Source of the DNA: a virus
Reading direction: 5' to 3' (one strand)
IMG/VR virus record: IMGVR_UViG_3300010391_000174
Coordinates: 1 to 64,000 of that record
Length of the DNA: 64,000 nt
Shown here: piece by piece, positions 2,184-63,702 of the stretch
Position numbering within the stretch: the stretch's first letter is position 1
How the letters are laid out: every line of letters begins with the position of its first letter
Program-made: the position numbers and the translations under genes
Notes under the pieces: model-generated
Seen by the model: only the letters and a program-made list of their open reading frames with translations
What the model was told of the DNA's origin: nothing
The model's database searches: none

Positions 2184-4340
2184 ATGAGTCCCCAAAAGAA
2201 TTTAAATAATATTCCAGAAGAAGACGATTCATTACTTCCAGAACATATTCCTGTAATTCCCTTTGATGTACGGAAAGAAAGAGAAAAAGAAGAAGCGAGA
2301 AGACAAGCAAATAAACTTCGAAAACAATATGGTAAAGTTGAACCCATTATTGTAACAAGAGAAGGAATTGCAAAAAAGGCCAGTGAGTTGACCTTAATGG
2401 AACGAAAATTCGAAATTATTCGATGTGGACTCGACCCATTTTATTTCATTGAAACTTATTTAACAATTTTTGACCTGACTCAAGGTAAAGATGGTCTCAT
2501 TGTTCCCTTCAAATTATTTGATTTTCAAAGAGAATTAATTCAAACATATTTGGATGAAAGATTTATTGTTGCAAATAAATATCGTCAGGCGGGTGTTTCA
2601 ACAACAACATGTGCATATATTGCATGGTATATTATGTTTAATCCAAATAGACAGGTTGCTATTGTTGCCGATAAACTTGAAACTGCACGTGATGAACTTA
2701 TGAGTGATGTGGTTCTTTTTATCGAAGGTTGCCCAGAATGGTTGAGACCAAAAACAGGTAGAGATGCAAAAGAAAGAAATTTAAAAGATACTCAGAAAGA
2801 TAAAATATACGATAATAATTCAAGATTAGGTGCTTTTAGTTCAAAGGGTCTTCGTGGTATGACACCAACCTTGATTTTCTGGGATGAAACAGCATGGACG
2901 GAAAAGGCTGATAAATTCTGGACTGCTGCAAAACCAACATTAGGTACTGGTGGTGGAGCTATCATGGTTAGTACTCCTTCAGGTCTTGATGCTGTATTTT
3001 ACAAACATTTTGATGGTGCACGTAGGGGAGAAAATAACTTTAAAGCAGTTGAATTATGGTGGTATAATGACCCCAGATACAATAAAGATTTAGTTTGGCT
3101 TAAAAATAAAGACAAAGAAAATGAAATACGTTTAGTTGACGAAAATTGGGATAAGAAGAAAAGAATTCAAATGATGGATGATGGATGGGAAGCCAGTTCG
3201 CCTTGGTTTAAAGAACAGGTTAAGGATGCGAATGGTGATATGCGAAAAATTGCACAAGAACTTTTATGCTCATTCTTGGGTTCTGGTGATAATTTCATTT
3301 CAGAAGAATATTTAAAACGTATTCAGGAAAATGAAATCCAGACCCCAATTAGTCAAGAATATATCGATAAGAATATGTGGATTTGGGAAGAAGCAAAAGT
3401 TGGTGAAGAATATATTATGGCGATTGATGCATCACCGGGTCATGGTGAGGACAATTCAACAATTAATATGTTGAAAACAATTGAAATTATTGAGGAAAAA
3501 GTAATCACAAAAGGTAATAAAGTAAAAAAAGTTAAAATAAAAAGGCATAAAGTTGAACAGGTTGCTGAATACTATGGTAAAATAACACCACAAATGCTTG
3601 CAGAAATTGCATATCAATATGGAAGGCGATATAATAATGCGTATTGTGTTGTAGATATTACTGGTGGATATGGAATACAAACTATTGAAAAATTACTTGA
3701 ATTTGGATATGAGAATATTCATTATGCCGAAGTAACACATAAACCTTCAAGAGATAGATTACAAGGATATATTAAAAAAGGACAGAAAACTATGTCTGAT
3801 GGTAATGTGATTAATGTTGACCTGATTCCCGGATTTTTTATTGGTAATAATCGTGCTTCCGTTGTTCTTGAAATGCAAAGAGCAATTCATTTAGAAGATG
3901 TTATAATTAGGTCATTTAGATTATTAAATGAATTGAAAACTTTTGTGACTGTTCCCGGAAATCGTGTTGCAGACCATAAACGTTCATTTCATGATGATTC
4001 AATTATGGGATTATCAATTGGTTTATATGTTTTGAATTTTGATATGATGAGATTCAAACAAAGTAAAGGAGTAACAGAAAAAATGCTCAATGCTATCATA
4101 ACATTAAATGATATAAAAGAATTTGAGATTAAAGTCAGGGAACGTGATGAAAGATTAAAAATAGAAAGGCAAATAAAATTATCTGGAAATACTGAAACAG
4201 ATAATATTTCAGTAGAGGAAATAAAAACAATTAATTATAAAAATAAACCAATGATTTCTCCCAATAGCACATCGCTATTAAATCCATATATTGTAAATGC
4301 TTGGTTATTTAATGGAATAAAAGAGAAAAAGAAAACATAG
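2184..4340 (+). CDS. Terminase large subunit (gp17-like)
   Basis: 718 residues. This is the packaging motor ATPase and headful nuclease, which docks on the portal. A Walker A-like loop reads Arg-Gln-Ala-Gly-Val-Ser-Thr-Thr-Thr at residues 134-142. Walker B with its catalytic Glu (Leu-Ile-Phe-Trp-Asp-Glu) is at 230-235, and the coupling motif Ser-Thr-Pro-Ser-Gly at 263-267. The C-terminal RNase H-like nuclease carries acidic residues in Ala-Ile-Asp-Ala-Ser, Val-Val-Asp-Ile-Thr and His-Asp-Asp-Ser. A Lys/Glu-rich insertion lies between the first two nuclease strands. It has its own late motif and is followed by the portal gene, as in other T4-like phages. No small terminase is recognised next to it. 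Confidence 0.95.
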   Translation: MSPQKNLNNIPEEDDSLLPEHIPVIPFDVRKEREKEEARRQANKLRKQYGKVEPIIVTREGIAKKASELTLMERKFEIIRCGLDPFYFIETYLTIFDLTQGKDGLIVPFKLFDFQRELIQTYLDERFIVANKYRQAGVSTTTCAYIAWYIMFNPNRQVAIVADKLETARDELMSDVVLFIEGCPEWLRPKTGRDAKERNLKDTQKDKIYDNNSRLGAFSSKGLRGMTPTLIFWDETAWTEKADKFWTAAKPTLGTGGGAIMVSTPSGLDAVFYKHFDGARRGENNFKAVELWWYNDPRYNKDLVWLKNKDKENEIRLVDENWDKKKRIQMMDDGWEASSPWFKEQVKDANGDMRKIAQELLCSFLGSGDNFISEEYLKRIQENEIQTPISQEYIDKNMWIWEEAKVGEEYIMAIDASPGHGEDNSTINMLKTIEIIEEKVITKGNKVKKVKIKRHKVEQVAEYYGKITPQMLAEIAYQYGRRYNNAYCVVDITGGYGIQTIEKLLEFGYENIHYAEVTHKPSRDRLQGYIKKGQKTMSDGNVINVDLIPGFFIGNNRASVVLEMQRAIHLEDVIIRSFRLLNELKTFVTVPGNRVADHKRSFHDDSIMGLSIGLYVLNFDMMRFKQSKGVTEKMLNAIITLNDIKEFEIKVRERDERLKIERQIKLSGNTETDNISVEEIKTINYKNKPMISPNSTSLLNPYIVNAWLFNGIKEKKKT

Positions 4341-4378
4341 AATGTATTTATGTTTAAATAACTTTTCGAAAAAATCGA

Positions 4379-4388
4379 AGTATTTATA
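4379..4388 (+). promoter_or_regulatory. Late-type promoter motif AGTATTTATA
   Basis: Consensus copy 32 bases before the portal ATG. A weaker variant TGTATTTATG lies at 4343-4352. Confidence 0.65.
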
Positions 4389-4411
4389 AAAAAATATAAA
4401 AATTTATAAAA

Positions 4412-6415
4412 ATGGCTGACAACGAAAATAAAAATACAATATATCAACAGCTTAACAAGATGTTAAATCTTGATGGTTTTGGTTTTCAAGACCAACAACC
4501 ATCTATTGCACAAAGTACCCCAGCAAAAGAAACAAGAGTAATTATTAAGGGTAACAGTCCTGAAGAAATACATAGAAAGGGTTTGGAGTTAGAGCAAAAA
4601 AGAGAACTTCAGAACAAATTCTTTAGAACAACTGATAGGGGTTTTCAAAAGGCTTTACAATATGAAGCAGCTAGACTTCCAGCATATATTGATTATGAGG
4701 GAATGGAATATTATCCAATTATCAGTAGTGCATTGGATTTATTCATGGAAGAAGCAACAACCATTGGTTTAAATGGTAAAATGTTGAACATCTATTCTAA
4801 TAAAGAGCGTATTAAATTGATGCTCGAAGAGTTTTTCTATGATGTGGTGAATGTTAATGTAAACTTACCTTTCTGGGTAAGAAACACCGTTAAATATGGC
4901 GATAATTTTGTTTTGTTATATGGTGAAAGAAAAAAGGGTATTACTCATGTGAAACAATTGGTTAATTACGAAATTGAGAGATTCGAAAGAATTCAAAATG
5001 GTAAACCACTTGTAAAATTCAAGGAAAGAATGACTGGTGATGAATTCAATGTGTTTGAAATTGCACATTTTAGACTATTGGGTGATGATAAGTATTTACC
5101 GTATGGGTCCTCTGTTTTAAATAAGGTACGTAGGGTTTTTCGACAGTTAGTTATGGCAGAAGATGCTATGTTAACATATCGTATTATACGTGCGGGTGAG
5201 AAAAAGATATTTAGGATTGATGTTGGTAATATTGATGAAGATGATATTGAAGAATATATCATGAAGGTTGCAACTAAATTTAAAAAAACAGCACAAGTAC
5301 AAGCAAATGATGGACAAATAGATTATCGTTTTAATATACTTGGTAATGATGAAGACTATTTTTTACCAGTAAGAAATGCAAATACCCAAACTGGTATTGA
5401 TACACTTCCCGGTGCATCCAATCTCGACCAAATACAGGACATTGAATATCTTCGTGATAATTTATTTATTGGTCTTGGTATTCCGAAACCATTTTTATCA
5501 TTTCAAGATGCTGCGGGTGCTGGAAAAAATATGGCACAATATGATATACGTTTTTCTAAAAAAATAAATCGTATTCAACAAGCTATGATTCAGGAACTCA
5601 ATAAAATGGCAATGATACATTTGTATTTATTGGGTTATAGTGGCGAAGACTTGAGTAGTTTCACATTAACACTCACAAATCCAAGTACGCAATCAGAATT
5701 ATTGAAATCTGAATTGATGCGTGATAAAGCTCAAACATATACTGAATTAACACGTTCTGAAAGTGGTATTGCAGCAATGTCACACACAAATGCAAAGAGA
5801 ATGTTATTCAATATGAGTGATAGAGAAATTGTTGATGATTTGAAACAACAAAAAATGGAAAAGGTTGTTATGCAAGAACTTCAAGATTCTCCAATAATTA
5901 TTAAAAAAAGTGGTTTATTTACTGATATTGATAAGAGATTTGGTGAACCAGTTGAAGGCATGCCAATCGGTGCTGAATCTGGCACAACTGAAGGTGGTGG
6001 AGCACCAGCAGGAATACCACCAGCAGGTGGTGGAGCACCGCCAGCAGGAGCACCGTTAGCAAGTAATGCAGGTGGAGCACCATTAGGTGGTGGAGCACCA
6101 GCAGGTGGTGGAGAATTACCACCAATGGCTGAAGGACGTAAAAAATTAAGTGAAGAAGAATTCGATAGACATATTGAAAAAATGGTTTTCGGTAATAGTT
6201 CAGAACCAGAACATAAAAAAGAAGTAAAACATAAAAAAATTATAAAAGAAAATAATGCAATTAATGAAACGCTGAATAAAAATGCTATGAAAATGGTCAA
6301 TGAAATTGACCAATTATTAAATGGTAGTAAAAGCATAAATACAGAGCAAAAAGATGGTGAAAGTGAGGATATTGATTTTGAAACACTTGAGAACATTAAT
6401 TTAAATGAAAACTAA
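4412..6415 (+). CDS. Portal protein (gp20-like)
   Basis: 667 residues. It forms the dodecameric head vertex through which DNA enters and on which the terminase docks. The middle of the protein has the family's conserved region (a Gln-Asp-Ile-Glu-Tyr-Leu-Arg-Asp segment followed by Leu-Gly-Ile-Pro-Lys-Pro-Phe) and long helices typical of the portal crown and stem. Unusually, about residues 527-572 are a Gly/Ala/Pro-only low-complexity stretch, followed by a charged Lys/Glu-rich tail, making the protein longer than T4 gp20 (524 residues). It starts 32 bases after a late motif. Confidence 0.9.
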   Translation: MADNENKNTIYQQLNKMLNLDGFGFQDQQPSIAQSTPAKETRVIIKGNSPEEIHRKGLELEQKRELQNKFFRTTDRGFQKALQYEAARLPAYIDYEGMEYYPIISSALDLFMEEATTIGLNGKMLNIYSNKERIKLMLEEFFYDVVNVNVNLPFWVRNTVKYGDNFVLLYGERKKGITHVKQLVNYEIERFERIQNGKPLVKFKERMTGDEFNVFEIAHFRLLGDDKYLPYGSSVLNKVRRVFRQLVMAEDAMLTYRIIRAGEKKIFRIDVGNIDEDDIEEYIMKVATKFKKTAQVQANDGQIDYRFNILGNDEDYFLPVRNANTQTGIDTLPGASNLDQIQDIEYLRDNLFIGLGIPKPFLSFQDAAGAGKNMAQYDIRFSKKINRIQQAMIQELNKMAMIHLYLLGYSGEDLSSFTLTLTNPSTQSELLKSELMRDKAQTYTELTRSESGIAAMSHTNAKRMLFNMSDREIVDDLKQQKMEKVVMQELQDSPIIIKKSGLFTDIDKRFGEPVEGMPIGAESGTTEGGGAPAGIPPAGGGAPPAGAPLASNAGGAPLGGGAPAGGGELPPMAEGRKKLSEEEFDRHIEKMVFGNSSEPEHKKEVKHKKIIKENNAINETLNKNAMKMVNEIDQLLNGSKSINTEQKDGESEDIDFETLENINLNEN

Positions 6416-49867: not shown

Positions 49868-50695
49868 CTATTTTTGAAGTCTTGATATATCAATTGTTCT
49901 GTCATTGACAAAATTTGCTTCTTTTGTTGCTGTTTCAAACCAAAATTTTCTTTCATTAATTGGCATTGTTTTTTGATACATATTAAAAAGACTTCCCTCA
50001 CGAGTTGCAAGATGTTTGTAACCAATCTTGGGTATCGTAAAAATCTTACACGCATTATTTAATGCTCTAAGCAAGAACTCATACATAAAGGTTAATTTAA
50101 TATTTGATTTATATTTACCAAGGTTTTCAAATTCAGATTTTTTAATAACAGCACCTGATAATTTAAAATCAGTATATTGTTTAAGTGCATTAGCATTTAA
50201 ATAACCCATTTCACCATTTTCACCAACAAATTGTTGTGCCCAAACAGTTTCATTAGTTAATTTAATACCTTCATTTTTATTATTGACTTCAATCATCATG
50301 CTTAAAAAAACATCAATATCTGGATATGCTTCAACATGTTGACACGCATTTTTGAAAAATGTGGTACTATATTCATCATCAAATTCAAGTACAGTAAAAT
50401 ATTCAGTTTTTACTGTATCAACACCCATATTAACCTGTGACTGATAATCAGTCTTACCTTCGTGATTTACAAGTCTTAATTTTAATGTATCATTTTTTTT
50501 CTCCATAGAGAAAATAGATTCTTGATATTTACTACAATATTCAATTAGTCCATCTAAACCAAGTGGAGATACGATTAAAACCTCTGGTAACTCACTAATA
50601 CCTTCTTGTTTAACTATTGATTCAATTGCTTTATCTAAGTATCCAGCAACTACTTTATTAAATTCGTGTACTGGAATTATTACTGATATATTCAT
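49868..50695 (-). CDS. Glycosyltransferase, GT2 (GT-A fold)
   Basis: 275 residues from ATG 50695 (Met-Asn-Ile-Ser-Val-Ile-Ile-Pro-Val-His). An in-frame ATG at 50719 is also possible. The N-terminal strand is the nucleotide-sugar site start, and Phe-Asp-Asp-Glu-Tyr near residue 108 fits the metal-binding DxD-like motif. It transfers sugar from a nucleotide-sugar to an unknown acceptor, possibly a virion protein or modified base. It clusters with a split GT-B enzyme. Confidence 0.8.
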   Translation of the reverse strand: MNISVIIPVHEFNKVVAGYLDKAIESIVKQEGISELPEVLIVSPLGLDGLIEYCSKYQESIFSMEKKNDTLKLRLVNHEGKTDYQSQVNMGVDTVKTEYFTVLEFDDEYSTTFFKNACQHVEAYPDIDVFLSMMIEVNNKNEGIKLTNETVWAQQFVGENGEMGYLNANALKQYTDFKLSGAVIKKSEFENLGKYKSNIKLTFMYEFLLRALNNACKIFTIPKIGYKHLATREGSLFNMYQKTMPINERKFWFETATKEANFVNDRTIDISRLQK

Positions 50696-50721
50696 TATTA
50701 TATTTTTATTTAAAATCATTA

Positions 50722-53045: not shown

Positions 53046-53981
53046 ATGAATAATGACCTAAAAAAAGAACGTCTTCCAGATTCACCGCTAAAAGAAAGTA
53101 TTTCTGAAGTATTAAAAAAATATAAAGAAGGAACTGGTAATATTAACGAAGAAAAAATTCCAACAGTAATTGGTAATGCAATACCAAAACCATTTGTTTT
53201 TAATCCACAGGAATTTGAAAGGGCAATGTCGAAAGAAACTGACCCAGATTTAATGACTTCTTATGAAACAGTTAAATTACCATCAAAAGGTAAATTTTAT
53301 GCACATGGTATCTCAGAAGTTAGTGTTGAATATATGACTTCTAAAGACGAGGATTTGCTTACAACTCCATCATTAATTGATGGTGGTAATCTTATAAATA
53401 TTTTATTAAAAAGAAAAGTTAAAACACCAGAAATTATTATTGAAGACTTATTGGCTGGTGATAGAAATGCAATTATTTTGTTTCTTCGTACTTCAAGTTA
53501 TGGTGCAGATTATAGTGTACAAGTAACTGACCCAAGAACAGGTATACAATTTCCATCAAAAGTTGATTTGCTTAAATTAAACTATAAAGAGCCTAAAGAA
53601 TTTCCAGACCAATATGGTCATTTTACTGTTGAAATACCAATGCGTAAAAAAACCATTACATTTAAATTAATAAGTTCTGGTGAAGACAATCAATTATTTA
53701 AAAAAGCCGAAGCAATTAAAGAAGCATATCATGAAGAATATAGCCAATACAGTACAATGAAATTAAAAGCACATATTATTGCAATTAATGAAAAAACTGA
53801 TAGGTCATATGTTGATAAATTTGTTGATGCAATGCCAGCACTCGATTGTCTTACAATTCGTAGAAAAATTATGGATGTGAGTCCTGATGTTGATATGAAA
53901 TATGAGTTTGCAACTAAAGATGGATATAAATTTGATGCTTATTTATCTCTAGGTCTGGATTTTTTTTTCCCCGCAACTTAG
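53046..53981 (+). CDS. Tail assembly chaperone / baseplate assembly protein (gp26-like), zero-frame product
   Basis: 311 residues ending at TAG 53979-53981. The centre (Val-Lys-Leu-Pro-Ser-Lys-Gly-Lys-Phe-Tyr, Thr-Ser-Lys-Asp-Glu-Asp-Leu-Leu, Leu-Leu-Ala-Gly-Asp-Arg-Asn-Ala, Leu-Arg-Thr-Ser-Ser-Tyr-Gly) resembles the T4 gp26/baseplate-chaperone family. It sits directly upstream of the tape measure gene, the usual place of tail chaperones. An eight-T run and a GC hairpin overlap the stop, and the -1 frame continues into a 59-codon frame, so a longer 377-residue fusion is likely made too. Confidence 0.8.
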   Translation: MNNDLKKERLPDSPLKESISEVLKKYKEGTGNINEEKIPTVIGNAIPKPFVFNPQEFERAMSKETDPDLMTSYETVKLPSKGKFYAHGISEVSVEYMTSKDEDLLTTPSLIDGGNLINILLKRKVKTPEIIIEDLLAGDRNAIILFLRTSSYGADYSVQVTDPRTGIQFPSKVDLLKLNYKEPKEFPDQYGHFTVEIPMRKKTITFKLISSGEDNQLFKKAEAIKEAYHEEYSQYSTMKLKAHIIAINEKTDRSYVDKFVDAMPALDCLTIRRKIMDVSPDVDMKYEFATKDGYKFDAYLSLGLDFFFPAT

Positions 53982-53986
53982 CGGGG
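53960..53986 (+). promoter_or_regulatory. -1 programmed ribosomal frameshift signal
   Basis: In the zero frame, GAT TTT TTT TTC CCC presents U_UUU_UUU and U_UUU_UUC slippery heptamers (53960-53969). A perfect 6-bp G+C stem CCCCGC-AACTTA-GCGGGG (53969-53986) follows, with the zero-frame TAG partly in its loop. The -1 frame has no stop from 53960 through to the downstream frame. The stem starts closer to the slip site than usual. Confidence 0.7.
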
Positions 53987-53998
53987 GAATATAAAAAA

Positions 53999-54178
53999 AT
54001 GGTGAATGAAGAAATTTTTATATTAATTCATCATGCTAACTTTCAAGCAGATTATATTGAAAATTTACCCGTATATCGCAGACGACACTTTTTATTTTTA
54101 TTACAAAAAGAAAATGATGAAATAGAACGTTTGCAAGAACAAGCAAGAAACAAAAATAATTTTAGACCAAGAAAATAA
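53999..54178 (+). CDS. Frameshift extension (T-like part) of the tail chaperone
   Basis: 59 codons from ATG 53999, in the -1 frame relative to the gene ending at 53981; the upstream -1 frame is open back through the slippery site. The product has Ala-Asn-Phe-Gln-Ala-Asp-Tyr-Ile-Glu-Asn-Leu-Pro-Val-Tyr-Arg-Arg-Arg and a coiled-coil end, like the T part of phage G/GT chaperones. Independent translation from the ATG is also possible. The tape measure gene starts 41 bases later. Confidence 0.7.
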   Translation: MVNEEIFILIHHANFQADYIENLPVYRRRHFLFLLQKENDEIERLQEQARNKNNFRPRK

Positions 54179-54219: not shown

Positions 54220-56691
54220 ATGGCAGCCGATAAAAAAACAGTACAAGAACTTCTTGATTTACAGAAACAATTAAATGTAGAACTTGATAGAGAAATTTCT
54301 AATGCTAAAGCAATGCGTGATTATAATACTGCCAGAGCATTGGAAGCCGATAAAATTGCTGCTAATCAAAGAATTATTAATGAGTTAAGGTCTCAAGAAC
54401 TTGATTTAACAATTGATGAAAGAAAACAATTAATTGATATTGAAAAAAAACAAAAAGATATTAATACTCAACTTAATCAAGAAAAAAATTCAAGACAAAG
54501 AATATCTAATATTCTTGGTGAAGCAAATCGTCAATTAAAACTTGGTTGGCAATATCTTCAACAATCAGATAAAATAATTCGTCAAACCATTCTTAATCTC
54601 GGTTTAAGTGGAACTAAAGCTGAAATGATGCGTAGTTCATTTGAACAATCTGCTGGATTTGTTGCGAGAATCGGTGGTAGTCTTGAAGATGTTCAGGGTA
54701 TTATGACGGGTTATGCTGATGAAACAGGGAGAGCACGTGTACTATCTGCTGAAATGGTTAAAGATATTGCACTTATAGGTAAAGGTACTGGTTTGGGTAT
54801 TGAACAGGCAACAAGACTTGGTGCACAATTTGAATTAATGGGTTTTGATGCTAAATCAACAATGGATTATGTTCAGGGTGTTGTCGATACCACAGAGAGA
54901 ATGGGTGTTAATACAACCAAAGTACTTAAAGTCGTTAATGATAATTTTAAAAAATTAAATACCTATACTTTTCAACAAGGTGTTAAAGGTTTTGCACAAA
55001 TGGCAAGTTATGCCGAAAAGTTCAGAATTGATATAACTCAGGCATTAAGTGCTGCAGATGTTGCTAAAAATCTTGAAGGTGCTATTGGATTAGCTGCTCA
55101 ATTACAAGTAATGGGTGGTGAATTTGCAAAGACAGACCCTTTTGAAATGCTTTTCTTAGCACATAATGACCCTGCAAAATTTACAGAAAAAATTGCAGAT
55201 ATGACCAAAGGTGTTGTAACCTTTAGAAAAATGGCAGATGGTAGTTTTGAAAAGTTTATAAGTCCTGCTGACCGTGATAGACTTGCTGCTGTTGCCAAAT
55301 CTTTGGGAATGGAAGCCAGTGAATTAACACAAATAGCTGAAAGACAAGCTGAAGTACAGAAAATGCGTCAGCAAATGGCTGGTATGGGCATTACTAAGTC
55401 TGAGAAAGAACTTATTGAAGGTGCTGCAATATTTAACAAACAAAGTGGTAGATTTGAAGTTATGCTTGCAGGTAGAATGAAAGATGTTGCCACATTAAGT
55501 AAAGAACAAGCAAATAGTTTTGTAAAAGAAAGTAAATCTCTGGAAGCACGAGCACTAGAAGCTCAGACATTTGAAGATGCATTTAAAGCTACAATAAATG
55601 AATTAAAATCAGCATTGCTGCCAATATTAAGAGCAGTGAATGGTGTATTAGTTGCAATTAGACCAACAGTTATTAAACTTACTGAATTTTTCACTGAAGG
55701 TCCTGCAGCATGGGCAAAAGTAGCTGCATTATTTTTAGGTGTTGGGGTAATGTGGAAAGGAATTTTACAACCATTCATGCAAAAAATGGGTGCTGCAACA
55801 ATTGGTAAAGTAGCAACAAGAGTGCGTGGCGGTGTTGCCACACCTACTGGTGTAGGTGGTGGTACTGCAGGTGGTGGAATGATGAATAAAATAAGCGGTA
55901 AAGCAATGGCAGGTGCGGGTGCAGGTATTGGTGCTGCTGCTTTGGGTGTTGGTGCAGGTATTGGTGCTGCTGCTGCGGGTATTAGTTTATTGGCAAATGC
56001 AATGAGTAAATTAGATGAAAAACAAGCTGAAACATTAAAAAGTGTTGTTAAAACTCTTGGCTGGTTTATTCTTGGTGGTGTTGGTGTTGCAATAGCAATC
56101 GCAGCTATTGGTGCTGCAGGTGGTGCAGTTGCTGTACCCTTAATAGCATTTGGTGGTGCAATCGCATTAATTGGCGCAGGTATTGGTATTGCTGCTGCAG
56201 GTATTGGTTTCATGGGAATGGGATTAGCTAAACTTGTTGAAAATAGTAAAGGTGCTGGTGAAGATATGCCAAAAGTTGCTCTTGGAATTGCTGGCATTGC
56301 TGCTTCGATGGGTATGGCTACATTGGCATTGCCCGGAGCAATTGGAATGTCATTAGCTGTAAGGTCAATAGGAAAACACGCTCCTGCACTTGCTCAAGTA
56401 GGTGCTGCTTTTAAAGAAATTAATACAACATTATCTGGAAGTAAAGAAAATTTTCTTGCAGTTCAAAATGCGGTTGAAAGTATATCAAAAATGAATGTAA
56501 AGGGTGGTGGCGCACTTTCGGACTTAGCAAATATGTTAAAAAAACCATTAAAAGTTGAATTTGTTGATAAACAAGTAGCTGTTGTTAGTAATATTACTAT
56601 GATGATTGATGGTCAGAAAATGTTTCAGAAAACCTATAATCCACAAGCTGCTGTACAAAAACATGAAGACCTGAGAATAGGAAAAGGTTAA
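54220..56691 (+). CDS. Tail tape measure protein
   Basis: 823 residues. The first 100 residues are a long coiled coil. The middle (100-430) has Gly-Leu-Gly-Ile-Glu-Gln-Ala-Thr, Gln-Val-Met-Gly-Gly-Glu-Phe-Ala and a tail-measure-like helical array. Residues about 530-720 are very Ala/Gly/Ile-rich with several hydrophobic helices, as in tape measures that insert in the host membrane. It determines tail length; by family experience about 1.5 angstrom per residue of the helical part would give a tail near 120 nm. Placement after the chaperone fits. Confidence 0.88.
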   Translation: MAADKKTVQELLDLQKQLNVELDREISNAKAMRDYNTARALEADKIAANQRIINELRSQELDLTIDERKQLIDIEKKQKDINTQLNQEKNSRQRISNILGEANRQLKLGWQYLQQSDKIIRQTILNLGLSGTKAEMMRSSFEQSAGFVARIGGSLEDVQGIMTGYADETGRARVLSAEMVKDIALIGKGTGLGIEQATRLGAQFELMGFDAKSTMDYVQGVVDTTERMGVNTTKVLKVVNDNFKKLNTYTFQQGVKGFAQMASYAEKFRIDITQALSAADVAKNLEGAIGLAAQLQVMGGEFAKTDPFEMLFLAHNDPAKFTEKIADMTKGVVTFRKMADGSFEKFISPADRDRLAAVAKSLGMEASELTQIAERQAEVQKMRQQMAGMGITKSEKELIEGAAIFNKQSGRFEVMLAGRMKDVATLSKEQANSFVKESKSLEARALEAQTFEDAFKATINELKSALLPILRAVNGVLVAIRPTVIKLTEFFTEGPAAWAKVAALFLGVGVMWKGILQPFMQKMGAATIGKVATRVRGGVATPTGVGGGTAGGGMMNKISGKAMAGAGAGIGAAALGVGAGIGAAAAGISLLANAMSKLDEKQAETLKSVVKTLGWFILGGVGVAIAIAAIGAAGGAVAVPLIAFGGAIALIGAGIGIAAAGIGFMGMGLAKLVENSKGAGEDMPKVALGIAGIAASMGMATLALPGAIGMSLAVRSIGKHAPALAQVGAAFKEINTTLSGSKENFLAVQNAVESISKMNVKGGGALSDLANMLKKPLKVEFVDKQVAVVSNITMMIDGQKMFQKTYNPQAAVQKHEDLRIGKG

Positions 56692-60755: not shown

Positions 60756-62381
60756 ATGAAAACTAATATTGTAGTAGTATTTTCCTCACATTTATCTGAT
60801 GCTGAAAATCAAGAATTTATAAAACATATTGATGATACTATTGGTGTTAAACATAAAGTAGTTTCATATCAGAATTTCAATCAATATAGTCTTGCACAAA
60901 TATATAATAATGCAATAGCTGAACATAAAGCTGATGATTGCATTTTTGTAATGTGTCATAATGATATTGAAATTAAAACCAGAAATTGGGGTAAGATATT
61001 GTTGAATCATTTTAATTATAATGATTATGGTATTATTGGTGTAGCTGGTAGCACATATATTCCCGCAAGCGGAATGTGGTGGGAAGACCGAAGTAAAATG
61101 TATGGAATTGTTGAACATACTGATGGTGCTAAATCGTGGACGAATGAATACTCCAATCCAATTAATGGCATTCAATCAACACTTATGGTTGATGGTTTAT
61201 TTATGACATTTGACCCAAATAAAATTGTACATGGTTTTAATGAAAAATATGGTTTGTTTCATTTTTATGATTTAAGTTTTTGTGTTGATAATTATTTAGA
61301 TGGCATTAATATAGGTGTAATCACCAATATTCGTGTAAAACATAAATCCGTAGGTCAAACAAATCAGAGTTGGGAAGATAATCGTAAGAAATTCGCCAGT
61401 GAATATAATCTTCCAATGCGATATGTGTCTGAAGATAAATTAAAAGTACTGATTTGTTGTCAGTTTTTTAAGAACTATACTGGTTCTGAAGTTAGTAATT
61501 ATGAACTTAGTCGTGAACTCGTTAAGCTTGGTTGTGATGTAACTATTATTTCTTCTGTTGTTGGCGACCCGTTACTTAGTAAAGCACAGAAAAATGGTGT
61601 TAAGGTTTATTCGTATTACAATTTACCAAATTATGTTCTTGACCATGAACAAAAATTCCATTTTAAGAAAAATGAAAAGGATTTCGATATAATCCATATT
61701 AATCATAAACCAATTGGTCAGTTGATATTAAATTTATATCCAAATACACCTGCGGTTATGCATGTCAGAAGTGAAGTTATTCCGGTTTTTGAAGAACCGA
61801 TAGTTAATCCTGCAGTAAAACGATATATTTCCATCAGAGAATCAATTACAGACTATATAACGACATTTGGTGTACCAAGCGATAAGATTGTATTGATTGA
61901 TAATCCATTCGACTACAAGCGATTTAATTGCGAATATAAGCCAATTAAAAATGAAAAGGAAGTAGTATTATTTATTGGCAGTCTTGATTATTTAAGAAAG
62001 AATGTTCTACTTGATTTAGCAAAAACAACAAAAGAAAATAACCAGATGTTATGGATAATTGGTGCTGATAATGGTGGATATATAAAGGAAATATACGATT
62101 TAAATACCGAAAAGAATATAAAATATTATGGAGTTAAATCTAATGTTGAAGATTTTATTAAAAAGTGTGATTATACTGCTGGAATTTTTAAAGGCAGGAC
62201 GACAATTGAAGGATTTTTATGTGGAAAAACCGGATGGATATATACTGTAGATAAAGAAGGAAATATTTTAAATAAGGTCTTACAAACAGTACCAGAGGAT
62301 ATTGAAAAGTATAGAAGTGATTTTTCAGCTAAGAAAGTACTTGAATTATATAATAAAATAATTAATGAGGTTTGGTTATAA
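60756..62381 (+). CDS. Two-domain glycosyltransferase (GT2-like plus GT4-like)
   Basis: 541 residues. Residues 1-220 are a GT-A-like domain with Cys-His-Asn-Asp-Ile in place of a DxD motif and Gly-Ile-Ile-Gly-Val-Ala-Gly. Residues 230-540 are a GT-B domain: Leu-Ile-Cys-Cys-Gln-Phe-Phe, Gly-Cys-Asp-Val-Thr-Ile-Ile, Val-Met-His-Val-Arg-Ser-Glu, Leu-Phe-Ile-Gly-Ser-Leu, and a Thr-Ile-Glu-Gly-Phe-Leu segment carrying the nucleotide-binding Glu. The present stop TAA appears to be supplied by an inserted TnpB element; joining 62379 to 63711 would add 17 residues. A glycan-decorating role is inferred. Confidence 0.8.
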   Translation: MKTNIVVVFSSHLSDAENQEFIKHIDDTIGVKHKVVSYQNFNQYSLAQIYNNAIAEHKADDCIFVMCHNDIEIKTRNWGKILLNHFNYNDYGIIGVAGSTYIPASGMWWEDRSKMYGIVEHTDGAKSWTNEYSNPINGIQSTLMVDGLFMTFDPNKIVHGFNEKYGLFHFYDLSFCVDNYLDGINIGVITNIRVKHKSVGQTNQSWEDNRKKFASEYNLPMRYVSEDKLKVLICCQFFKNYTGSEVSNYELSRELVKLGCDVTIISSVVGDPLLSKAQKNGVKVYSYYNLPNYVLDHEQKFHFKKNEKDFDIIHINHKPIGQLILNLYPNTPAVMHVRSEVIPVFEEPIVNPAVKRYISIRESITDYITTFGVPSDKIVLIDNPFDYKRFNCEYKPIKNEKEVVLFIGSLDYLRKNVLLDLAKTTKENNQMLWIIGADNGGYIKEIYDLNTEKNIKYYGVKSNVEDFIKKCDYTAGIFKGRTTIEGFLCGKTGWIYTVDKEGNILNKVLQTVPEDIEKYRSDFSAKKVLELYNKIINEVWL

Positions 62382-62436: not shown

Positions 62437-63702
62437 ATGTTAAAAGCAATTAAAATACGAATCTATCTTAATAATGAACAAAAAGTTTATATTTCTAAAC
62501 TATTGGGTTCTTGTAGATTTGTATATAATAATTGCCTTGCTTATAGAATTGAAAAATATAATCAAGAAAAAATAACAATTGGCTTTGCAGAATTGGGAAA
62601 ATATTTAACTGAACTTAAAAAGAAAGAAGAATACGTGTGGCTAAAAGATAGTCATTCAAAGGTATTACAACAAACACTTATTAACTTAGAATACGCATAT
62701 AAATCATTTTTTAAAAATGATATGGGTTTTCCTAAGTTTAAATCAAAAAAAGATAATAAACAAAGTTGTAGATTTCCTGTTGATGCTATTGGTGGAATAT
62801 GTGGTAATAGAATTAACATCATTAAAACATTAAAGGATATTCACTACAAATGTAGTATTAATGATGAAAAATATTTAAATCATAATCAAAATTTAATTAA
62901 ATCAGCAACATTAACTCGAACAAAATCAAATAAATATTATTTTTCAATTTTAATTGATAAACCAAATATTAAATCATTACCAGAAATAGATAAAATTATT
63001 GGTATCGATTTAGGTATTAAAGATTTTGTAATTACATCTAAAGGCGATAAATTTGAGAACATTAAAACTATTAGAAATAATGAAAAACCATTAATAAAAT
63101 TACAAAGACAATTAAGTAAAAAACAATTAAATAGTAAGAACAGAAACAAATTAAGAATTAAATTAGCAAAAAAATATGAAAAGATAAATAATATAAAGGA
63201 AAATTATTTACATCAAATTTCAAATCAATTGCTTAACGAAAATCAAGTTATAGTAATGGAAGATTTAAATGTAAATGGTATGTTAAAAAATCATAAATTA
63301 GTTAAATCTATACGAGAATTATCTTTAAGTAGATTTAAAGAAATGCTTATATATAAAGCTGATTGGTATGATAGACAAGTTATTGAAATTGATAGATGGT
63401 ATCCTTCAAGTAAATTGTGTTCAATATGTGGTTATAAAAATAATGAATTAAAATTAAGTGACAGAAAATGGACATGTCCCGTTTGTAATACTATTCATGA
63501 CAGAGATTATAATGCTGCAATTAATATAAAAAAAGAGGGTCTGAGAATTTTATCTATTAAAGAGAATAAATTAAATAATATTAAAATAGGGTTGGGTTCA
63601 CCCGAATTAACGCTTGAGGACTATCCTCTGATGGATGACAAGGCAGAAATGCCCCTAAAAAGTTATGATAGAATGAGACAAGAAAAAAATGAATTATTAT
63701 AG
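62437..63702 (+). CDS. tnpB: TnpB-type RNA-guided nuclease (element 2)
   Basis: 421 residues, classical IS605 OrfB. The RuvC residues are Asp191 (Gly-Ile-Asp-Leu-Gly), Glu275 (Val-Met-Glu-Asp-Leu) and Asp357 (Asp-Arg-Asp-Tyr-Asn-Ala). The zinc ribbon Cys are 328, 331, 347 and 350. The C-terminal extension (Gly-Leu-Gly-Ser-Pro-Glu-Leu-Thr to Leu-Lys-Ser-Tyr-Asp-Arg-Met) is the part that overlaps the guide-RNA scaffold in this family. A+T content equals that of the phage, unlike element 1, suggesting long residence. Only about 20-25% similar by eye to the first TnpB. It looks intact. Confidence 0.92.
   Translation: MLKAIKIRIYLNNEQKVYISKLLGSCRFVYNNCLAYRIEKYNQEKITIGFAELGKYLTELKKKEEYVWLKDSHSKVLQQTLINLEYAYKSFFKNDMGFPKFKSKKDNKQSCRFPVDAIGGICGNRINIIKTLKDIHYKCSINDEKYLNHNQNLIKSATLTRTKSNKYYFSILIDKPNIKSLPEIDKIIGIDLGIKDFVITSKGDKFENIKTIRNNEKPLIKLQRQLSKKQLNSKNRNKLRIKLAKKYEKINNIKENYLHQISNQLLNENQVIVMEDLNVNGMLKNHKLVKSIRELSLSRFKEMLIYKADWYDRQVIEIDRWYPSSKLCSICGYKNNELKLSDRKWTCPVCNTIHDRDYNAAINIKKEGLRILSIKENKLNNIKIGLGSPELTLEDYPLMDDKAEMPLKSYDRMRQEKNELL

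Follow-up and report, generated by a model that had tools for sequence, protein, structure and literature searches.

The window, that is the whole 64,000-nucleotide stretch that was analysed, comes from a virus record of 64,772 bases and has a G+C content of 29%. The locus described here comprises a gp26-like gene that ends on a run of T residues, an extension that is open in the -1 frame, and a long open reading frame directly downstream. Its features are:

53046..53981, + strand: zero-frame coding sequence of the short chaperone form (gp26-like, TAC-N), 311 aa; an ORF with a PF12322 match and fold matches
53253..53909, + strand: PF12322 (T4_baseplate) domain, E=3.4e-11, the sole copy in the record
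53960..53968, + strand: T9 run that holds both slip heptamers; T9 in 67/74 loci, T8 in 7
53967..54178, + strand: extension in the -1 frame (C-terminal T domain, putatively gp51-like) of 70 codons including the re-read Phe; open and conserved in 74/74
53969..53986, + strand: GC hairpin CCCCGC-AACTTA-GCGGGG over the zero-frame stop, of variable strength among relatives
53999..54001, + strand: ATG that opens an annotatable 59-codon ORF, apparently unneeded as a start; ATG in 66/74 loci
54220..56691, + strand: presumed tape measure protein, 823 aa, called from its position directly downstream

The gp26-like gene terminates in the zero frame as GAT TTT TTT TTC CCC GCA ACT TAG, with the stop TAG at 53979-53981. 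An earlier, sequence-only reading of this DNA had pointed to U_UUU_UUU and U_UUU_UUC as slip sites at the end of this frame, and both heptamers are indeed present and in phase (53960-53966 and 53963-53969, respectively), with CCCC directly 3' of the T9 run at 53969-53972. The -1 frame has no stop codon from about 53933 (53936) up to the TAA at 54176-54178 and is thus open from the slip site into the 59-codon frame, as that reading had claimed; translation gives a fusion of 307 + 70 = 377 residues, in agreement with the length it had proposed. A T9 run is not rare by itself, as the 64-kb window contains three T9, three A9 and one A10 runs. Since runs of nine A or T are common in the window, the T9 site alone means little, and its conservation is the real test.

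The short form matched PF12322 with E=2e-9 and 38 bits (cut-off 24.5) and phrog_150, 'baseplate hub', with E=5e-9, and its AlphaFold model (mean pLDDT 83.7) matched predicted structures of T4-like baseplate-hub-assembly proteins with E values down to 2e-23. The -1 extension was predicted to adopt a three-helix fold (pLDDT 90.7). A profile of this T domain aligned with those of the sister-clade extensions (hhalign P=97.6, E=4e-12), while direct hhalign comparison of the T domain of the window with the C-terminus of T4 gp51 was not significant (P=0.1); a chain of hhalign comparisons leads from the window to Mel-JY01 (97.6), from there to other T4-like phages (92) and from these to T4 gp51 (75). 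The T domain also gave a weak match to phrog_634 (E=0.11). A fold search with the T domain returned no significant match, with Gp51 of cyanophage P-HM1 at rank 3 (E=0.16); some of the lower-ranked matches carry a tail assembly chaperone annotation. A sequence search of solved structures gave no match for either the N domain or the T domain, and in the fold search against the PDB the HK97 chaperone 2ob9 (rank 4, E=1.8) and yqbN 3klu (rank 9, E=2.3), examined for an HK97 gp13-like fold, were both below significance.

The gene position, which had been likened to that of the G/GT chaperones of long-tailed phages, is shared by the relatives: an ORF of more than 300 codons occupies the tape-measure place in 63 of 65 of them, at a median gap of 45 nt, and an annotated tape measure lies at the same place in immuto and SP-15. 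The product of 54220-56691 showed only a weak match to the immuto tape measure (E=0.04) and no family match, and it is presumed to be the tape measure from its position. Other genes noticed in the window encode a TnpB-like protein near the tail genes (62437-63702, +; OrfB_IS605 E=7e-22; Cas12f1-like TNB domain E=1e-24), a fused glycosyltransferase (60756-62381, +; PF13712 + PF13439) and a family-2 glycosyltransferase (49868-50719, -).

A scan of viral contigs yielded 77 relatives, and the junction was reached by 74 sequences (the window and 73 relatives, the latter 51-78% identical). In all 74 viral sequences the phase of the T-run is the same, the zero frame stops soon after the run, and the -1 extension is open. 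The motif GAY TTT TTT T.. is in phase in 74/74 loci, and an in-phase X_XXY_YYZ heptamer (U_UUU_UUU and/or U_UUU_UUC) is likewise present in every one of them. Where the contig is complete, the -1 frame is 64-78 codons long, and 55 distinct extensions were observed. In the seven T8 loci, GAC TTT TTT TTC leaves U_UUU_UUC only and GAT TTT TTT TC. leaves U_UUU_UUU only, and every one of these loci retains one in-phase heptamer. A single continuous frame or a lost -1 frame in relatives had been named as outcomes that would speak against a frameshift; we looked for both and found neither (0 among the 74 viral sequences in each case). The same T-run site and out-of-frame arrangement were also seen in a Bacteroidota-binned contig, L350, with a 67% identical gp26. 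Its binning gives a weak hint at the host phylum; the bin is possibly wrong.

Beyond the zero-frame stop, the N/S ratio, calculated from single-base codon differences in pairwise counts uncorrected for shared descent, was 0.30 in the -1 frame in comparison to 6.43 and 12.13 in the other frames of 49 aligned sequences, a large contrast between frames. The same alignment has no stop codon in the -1 frame after the zero-frame stop, versus 93 and 295 in the other two. The six codons from the zero-frame stop to the ATG at 53999 gave N/S of 0.19 in the -1 frame, and the ATG position is occupied by TTA, TTG, GTA, GTT or ATA in 8/74 loci. Protein-level selection before the ATG, together with the replacement of this codon, argues that the extension is translated from upstream, as a fusion. 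These comparisons indicate that the -1 frame is under protein-level selection, including the part ahead of ATG 53999. The Leu codon across the stop is TTA or CTA in 54/54 sequences (background about 0.66), which keeps TAG/TAA. Of the third Phe codons, 51/54 are TTC (background 0.19), as required by the Pro codon CCC of the -1 frame. Both biases read as further marks of dual coding. We regard the sequence of the site, its phase and conservation, the selection on the -1 frame and the homology of the N domain as established.

A perfect CCCCGC/GCGGGG stem overlapping the stop had been described as exceptional in this DNA and as unusually close to the slip site, and both descriptions are borne out. 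Its arms (53969-53974 and 53981-53986) enclose a loop of 6 nt, it is the only perfect 6-bp all-G/C hairpin with a loop of 3-10 nt in the 64-kb window, and only 0-2 nt separate it from the slip codons, a distance too short for a canonical stimulator; as RNA, the hairpin could be extended by pairing of the T-run with the A-run at 53993-53999. The same reading had asked whether the T-run, the stem and the -1 extension are conserved together. This holds for the T-run and the extension (74/74) but not for a strong stem, which was found in 9 of 52 distinct sequences (<= -6.7 kcal/mol), and the predicted energies of the 20-nt region lie between 0 and -13.1 kcal/mol, the window having the strongest of all. 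The mean stem energy was -3.89, in comparison to -2.16 (SD 0.20) for a synonymous-codon null, and the Ala codon in the stem region is GCG in 33/50 cases against a background of 3%. The energy below the synonymous null and the GCG excess suggest that pairing is favoured, yet the strong stem is not conserved. A stimulatory structure at the usual spacing of 5-9 nt is not conserved downstream of the site in the 52 sequences either; in programmed -1 ribosomal frameshifting such a downstream stimulator is common, although not universal. The GC stem can thus be ruled out as a conserved core signal, while some synonymous selection for pairing remains, and the stem is probably a local modulator.

We consider it very probable that a G/GT-type pair of tail assembly chaperones, belonging to the T4 gp26/gp51 family, is encoded here and that the fusion is produced by a ribosomal -1 slip on the T-run. 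The -1 programmed frameshift in a tail chaperone, as originally proposed, draws support from homology and from the fact that slip site, frame and stop are conserved in all relatives. As judged from these features, most likely both the 311-residue short form and the 377-residue fusion are made, in a G/GT (TAC-N/TAC-NC) arrangement. The majority of ribosomes would stay in the zero frame and halt at the TAG at 53979, giving the 311 aa TAC-N. A minority would slip one nucleotide backward on the T-run, where two tRNA-Phe could re-pair on U_UUU_UUU or U_UUU_UUC, pass the stop and append the gp51-like helical T domain, giving the 377 aa TAC-NC. If the lambda model applies, the short form would coat the tape measure protein, presumably the product of the next gene, and a few fusion molecules would recruit the tube subunit and start its polymerisation. 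The arrangement proposed for the window is like that of lambda G/GT, where a minority fusion arises from a -1 shift shortly before the short ORF ends and the gene precedes the tape measure, which in the window is a presumed one; the slip sequence of lambda, however, differs from that of the window. We infer the ribosomal nature of the slippage, its rate and the function of the proteins. The same kind of slip site, NNT TTT TTC, occurs elsewhere in the family, in cyanophage gp26.

The same two proteins could alternatively be made from altered mRNAs, if RNA polymerase, on reaching the T9 run, added one U or dropped two. Nine T's are present in most loci (67/74) and are enough for polymerase slippage, and a conserved downstream stimulator is absent at the usual spacing. 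However, the run keeps an invariant phase relative to the codons, a constraint that polymerase slippage does not impose, the seven T8-only loci keep exactly one in-phase ribosomal heptamer, and in the cyanophage group, which belongs to the same family, there are six T's only. Because of these three features we favour ribosomal over polymerase slippage, and transcriptional slippage appears unlikely, although it deserves some weight.

The 59-codon ORF might also be a separate gene that starts at ATG 53999 and is expressed without any fusion, in the manner of the TAATG-coupled small gp51 genes of Cygsa01 and Vibrio K364. This would fit with the ATG in 66/74 loci and with the small gp51-like ORFs that are annotated separately in other T4-like phages. 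It leaves the T-run and the stop preserved by TTA/CTA without a role, though, and most extensions of the +1 clades described below lack an ATG (one is present within 10 codons in 4/79 and within 20 codons in 19/80). With the ATG missing in 8/74 loci and the -1 frame conserved as protein 5' of it (N/S 0.19), we rejected a separate gene as highly improbable. Finally, homopolymers are prone to error, and the true gene could be one continuous frame, with the T count an assembly or sequencing artefact or the gene a pseudogene. The same out-of-frame layout in 74 viral sequences and in the bacterial bin L350, with no continuous frame among them, excludes a homopolymer sequencing error; the 74 concordant loci refute this explanation and leave it practically no probability.

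The ribosomal -1 slip proposed for the window can be compared with the situation in T4, whose gp26 was said by the sequence-only reading not to be known to frameshift. PF12322 spans residues 1-206 of the 208 of T4 gp26 and residues 1-201 of the 249 of gp51, so gp51 consists of a gp26-like domain and about 48 further residues. Among the 26 records examined, two PF12322 genes were found only in T4 and Konradin, in place of the frameshift of the window. A single gene is present in the record of the window, in eight further IMG/VR records and in each of the other named phages with a match, and in immuto and Mel-JY01 the PF12322 match was below threshold. Judging by these domain matches, T4 appears to encode the short (gene 26) and the long (gene 51) forms as separate genes, which would explain why it is not known to frameshift gp26. 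Frameshifting is reportedly conserved in several T4-like groups, and T4 is said to use genes 26 and 51. In the Konradin record gp26, gp28 and gp51 are already named tape measure protein assembly chaperones. T4 gp26 also matched phrog_1140, 'baseplate hub distal subunit' (E=9e-4), which hints at a possible relationship between gp26 and this family of hub proteins. Phage G gp181/182, considered as a further PF12322 case, was rejected, being by eye a different short protein.

T4-like frameshifting members share with the window the N-terminal family PF12322 of TAC-N/TAC-NC (the gene 26/51 family), a poly-T slip where the short ORF ends and a C-terminal domain that in the window is putatively gp51-like. 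In the cyanophage group, gp26 genes end as NNT TTT TTC NNN stop in 80/80 cases, and in nearly all of the 80 the -1 frame continues for about 60 codons and is under selection (N/S 0.55 versus 4.7 and 10.4). The cyanophage site thus has T6 and one codon before the stop, whereas the clade of the window has T9, two overlapping heptamers and 19 nt from the start of the T-run to the stop. In Synechococcus phage ACG-2014b the gp26 -1 extension (L099 1706-1885, about 61 codons) is unannotated, and viral-contig relatives keep it. The cyanophage-type ending is common to phiAS5, ZPAH1, PhiW-14, Vibrio D484 and YB07, and Rhizobium I34 has TTT TTG at the corresponding ending. Cygsa01, K364 and SFP10 are without a heptamer, and Cygsa01 and K364 have TAATG at the stop, which is consistent with re-initiation.

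In Flavobacterium phage immuto, Microcystis phage Mel-JY01, Bacillus phage SP-15 and viral contigs, the N domains are homologous to that of the window and the FF.P position of the junction is unchanged; for the immuto and Mel-JY01 groups, homology extends to the T domain. These two groups differ from the window in having the extension in the +1 frame (+1 N/S 0.58 and 0.47 for the Mel-JY01 and immuto groups, respectively), with [TC]TT NNN TGG CCT in 156 of their 159 loci. A +1-frame extension can be reached by a +1 or a -2 shift, and the two look alike at the level of sequence. A +1 shift is also required in SP-15, LIS04, GXN1, RM378 and LR756508. Of the +1 extension of immuto (L080 4132-4437), only the stretch 4327-4437 close to its end is annotated, as a hypothetical protein of 36 residues. 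A Winogradskyella-binned contig, L360, which has TTT TTT TTC CCT and a +1-frame extension, looks intermediate between the -1 site of the window and the +1 TGG CCT sites. In a quick tree the -1 clade of the window adjoins the +1 Mel/immuto clade with support of 86, and three -1/+1 changes are needed, only one to two of them forced by the best-supported branches; long branches leave parts of this tree unsure, with several open forks.

The direction of the shift thus appears, from the tree and the reading frames, to have changed within this chaperone family. We think it probable, with somewhat less confidence than for the frameshift itself, that the route to the long form was switched repeatedly in one homologous family, between a -1 slip (cyanophages and the clade of the window), a +1/-2 slip (the sister clades), coupled re-initiation and gene duplication (T4). 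The clade of the window would then be a -1 lineage nested among +1 lineages, possibly since a long T-run at the conserved Phe-Phe can slip either way.

G/GT frameshifting was described as widely conserved in long-tailed phages 'except T4', and a haloarchaeal myovirus was described as very likely using +1 (Atkins et al. 2016, PMC5009743). T4-like phages with one short gene and one long fusion gene are mentioned in PMC10885494, and poly-T -1 signals in T4-like TAC-N genes in PMC12846349, both citing Vladimirov, Gautam & Davidson 2022 (Virology 566:9-15). As far as these citing papers convey, T4-like chaperones with poly-T slips were already published in 2022, and the window is a further case. 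The Vandenendeviridae TAC of phage Adele (PMC12846349) has a conserved -1 GTTTTT site, and the site of the window follows the same logic, with evidence of the same kind: a -1 frame that is never interrupted and an extension annotated as a hypothetical gene. The phage family differs. We found no description of a mix of shift directions in one chaperone family in the literature searched, outside which most subscription papers lie.

For this large group of uncultivated phages, the finding means that the DNA in front of the presumed tape measure contains a protein extension that is under selection and easily overlooked. It also adds to the published case that gp26 and gp51, the hub chaperones of T4, are its short and long tail assembly chaperones. 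Sister clades with -1 and +1 extensions offer a natural series in which to ask whether selection acts on the presence and the ratio of the two forms or on the recoding mechanism itself.
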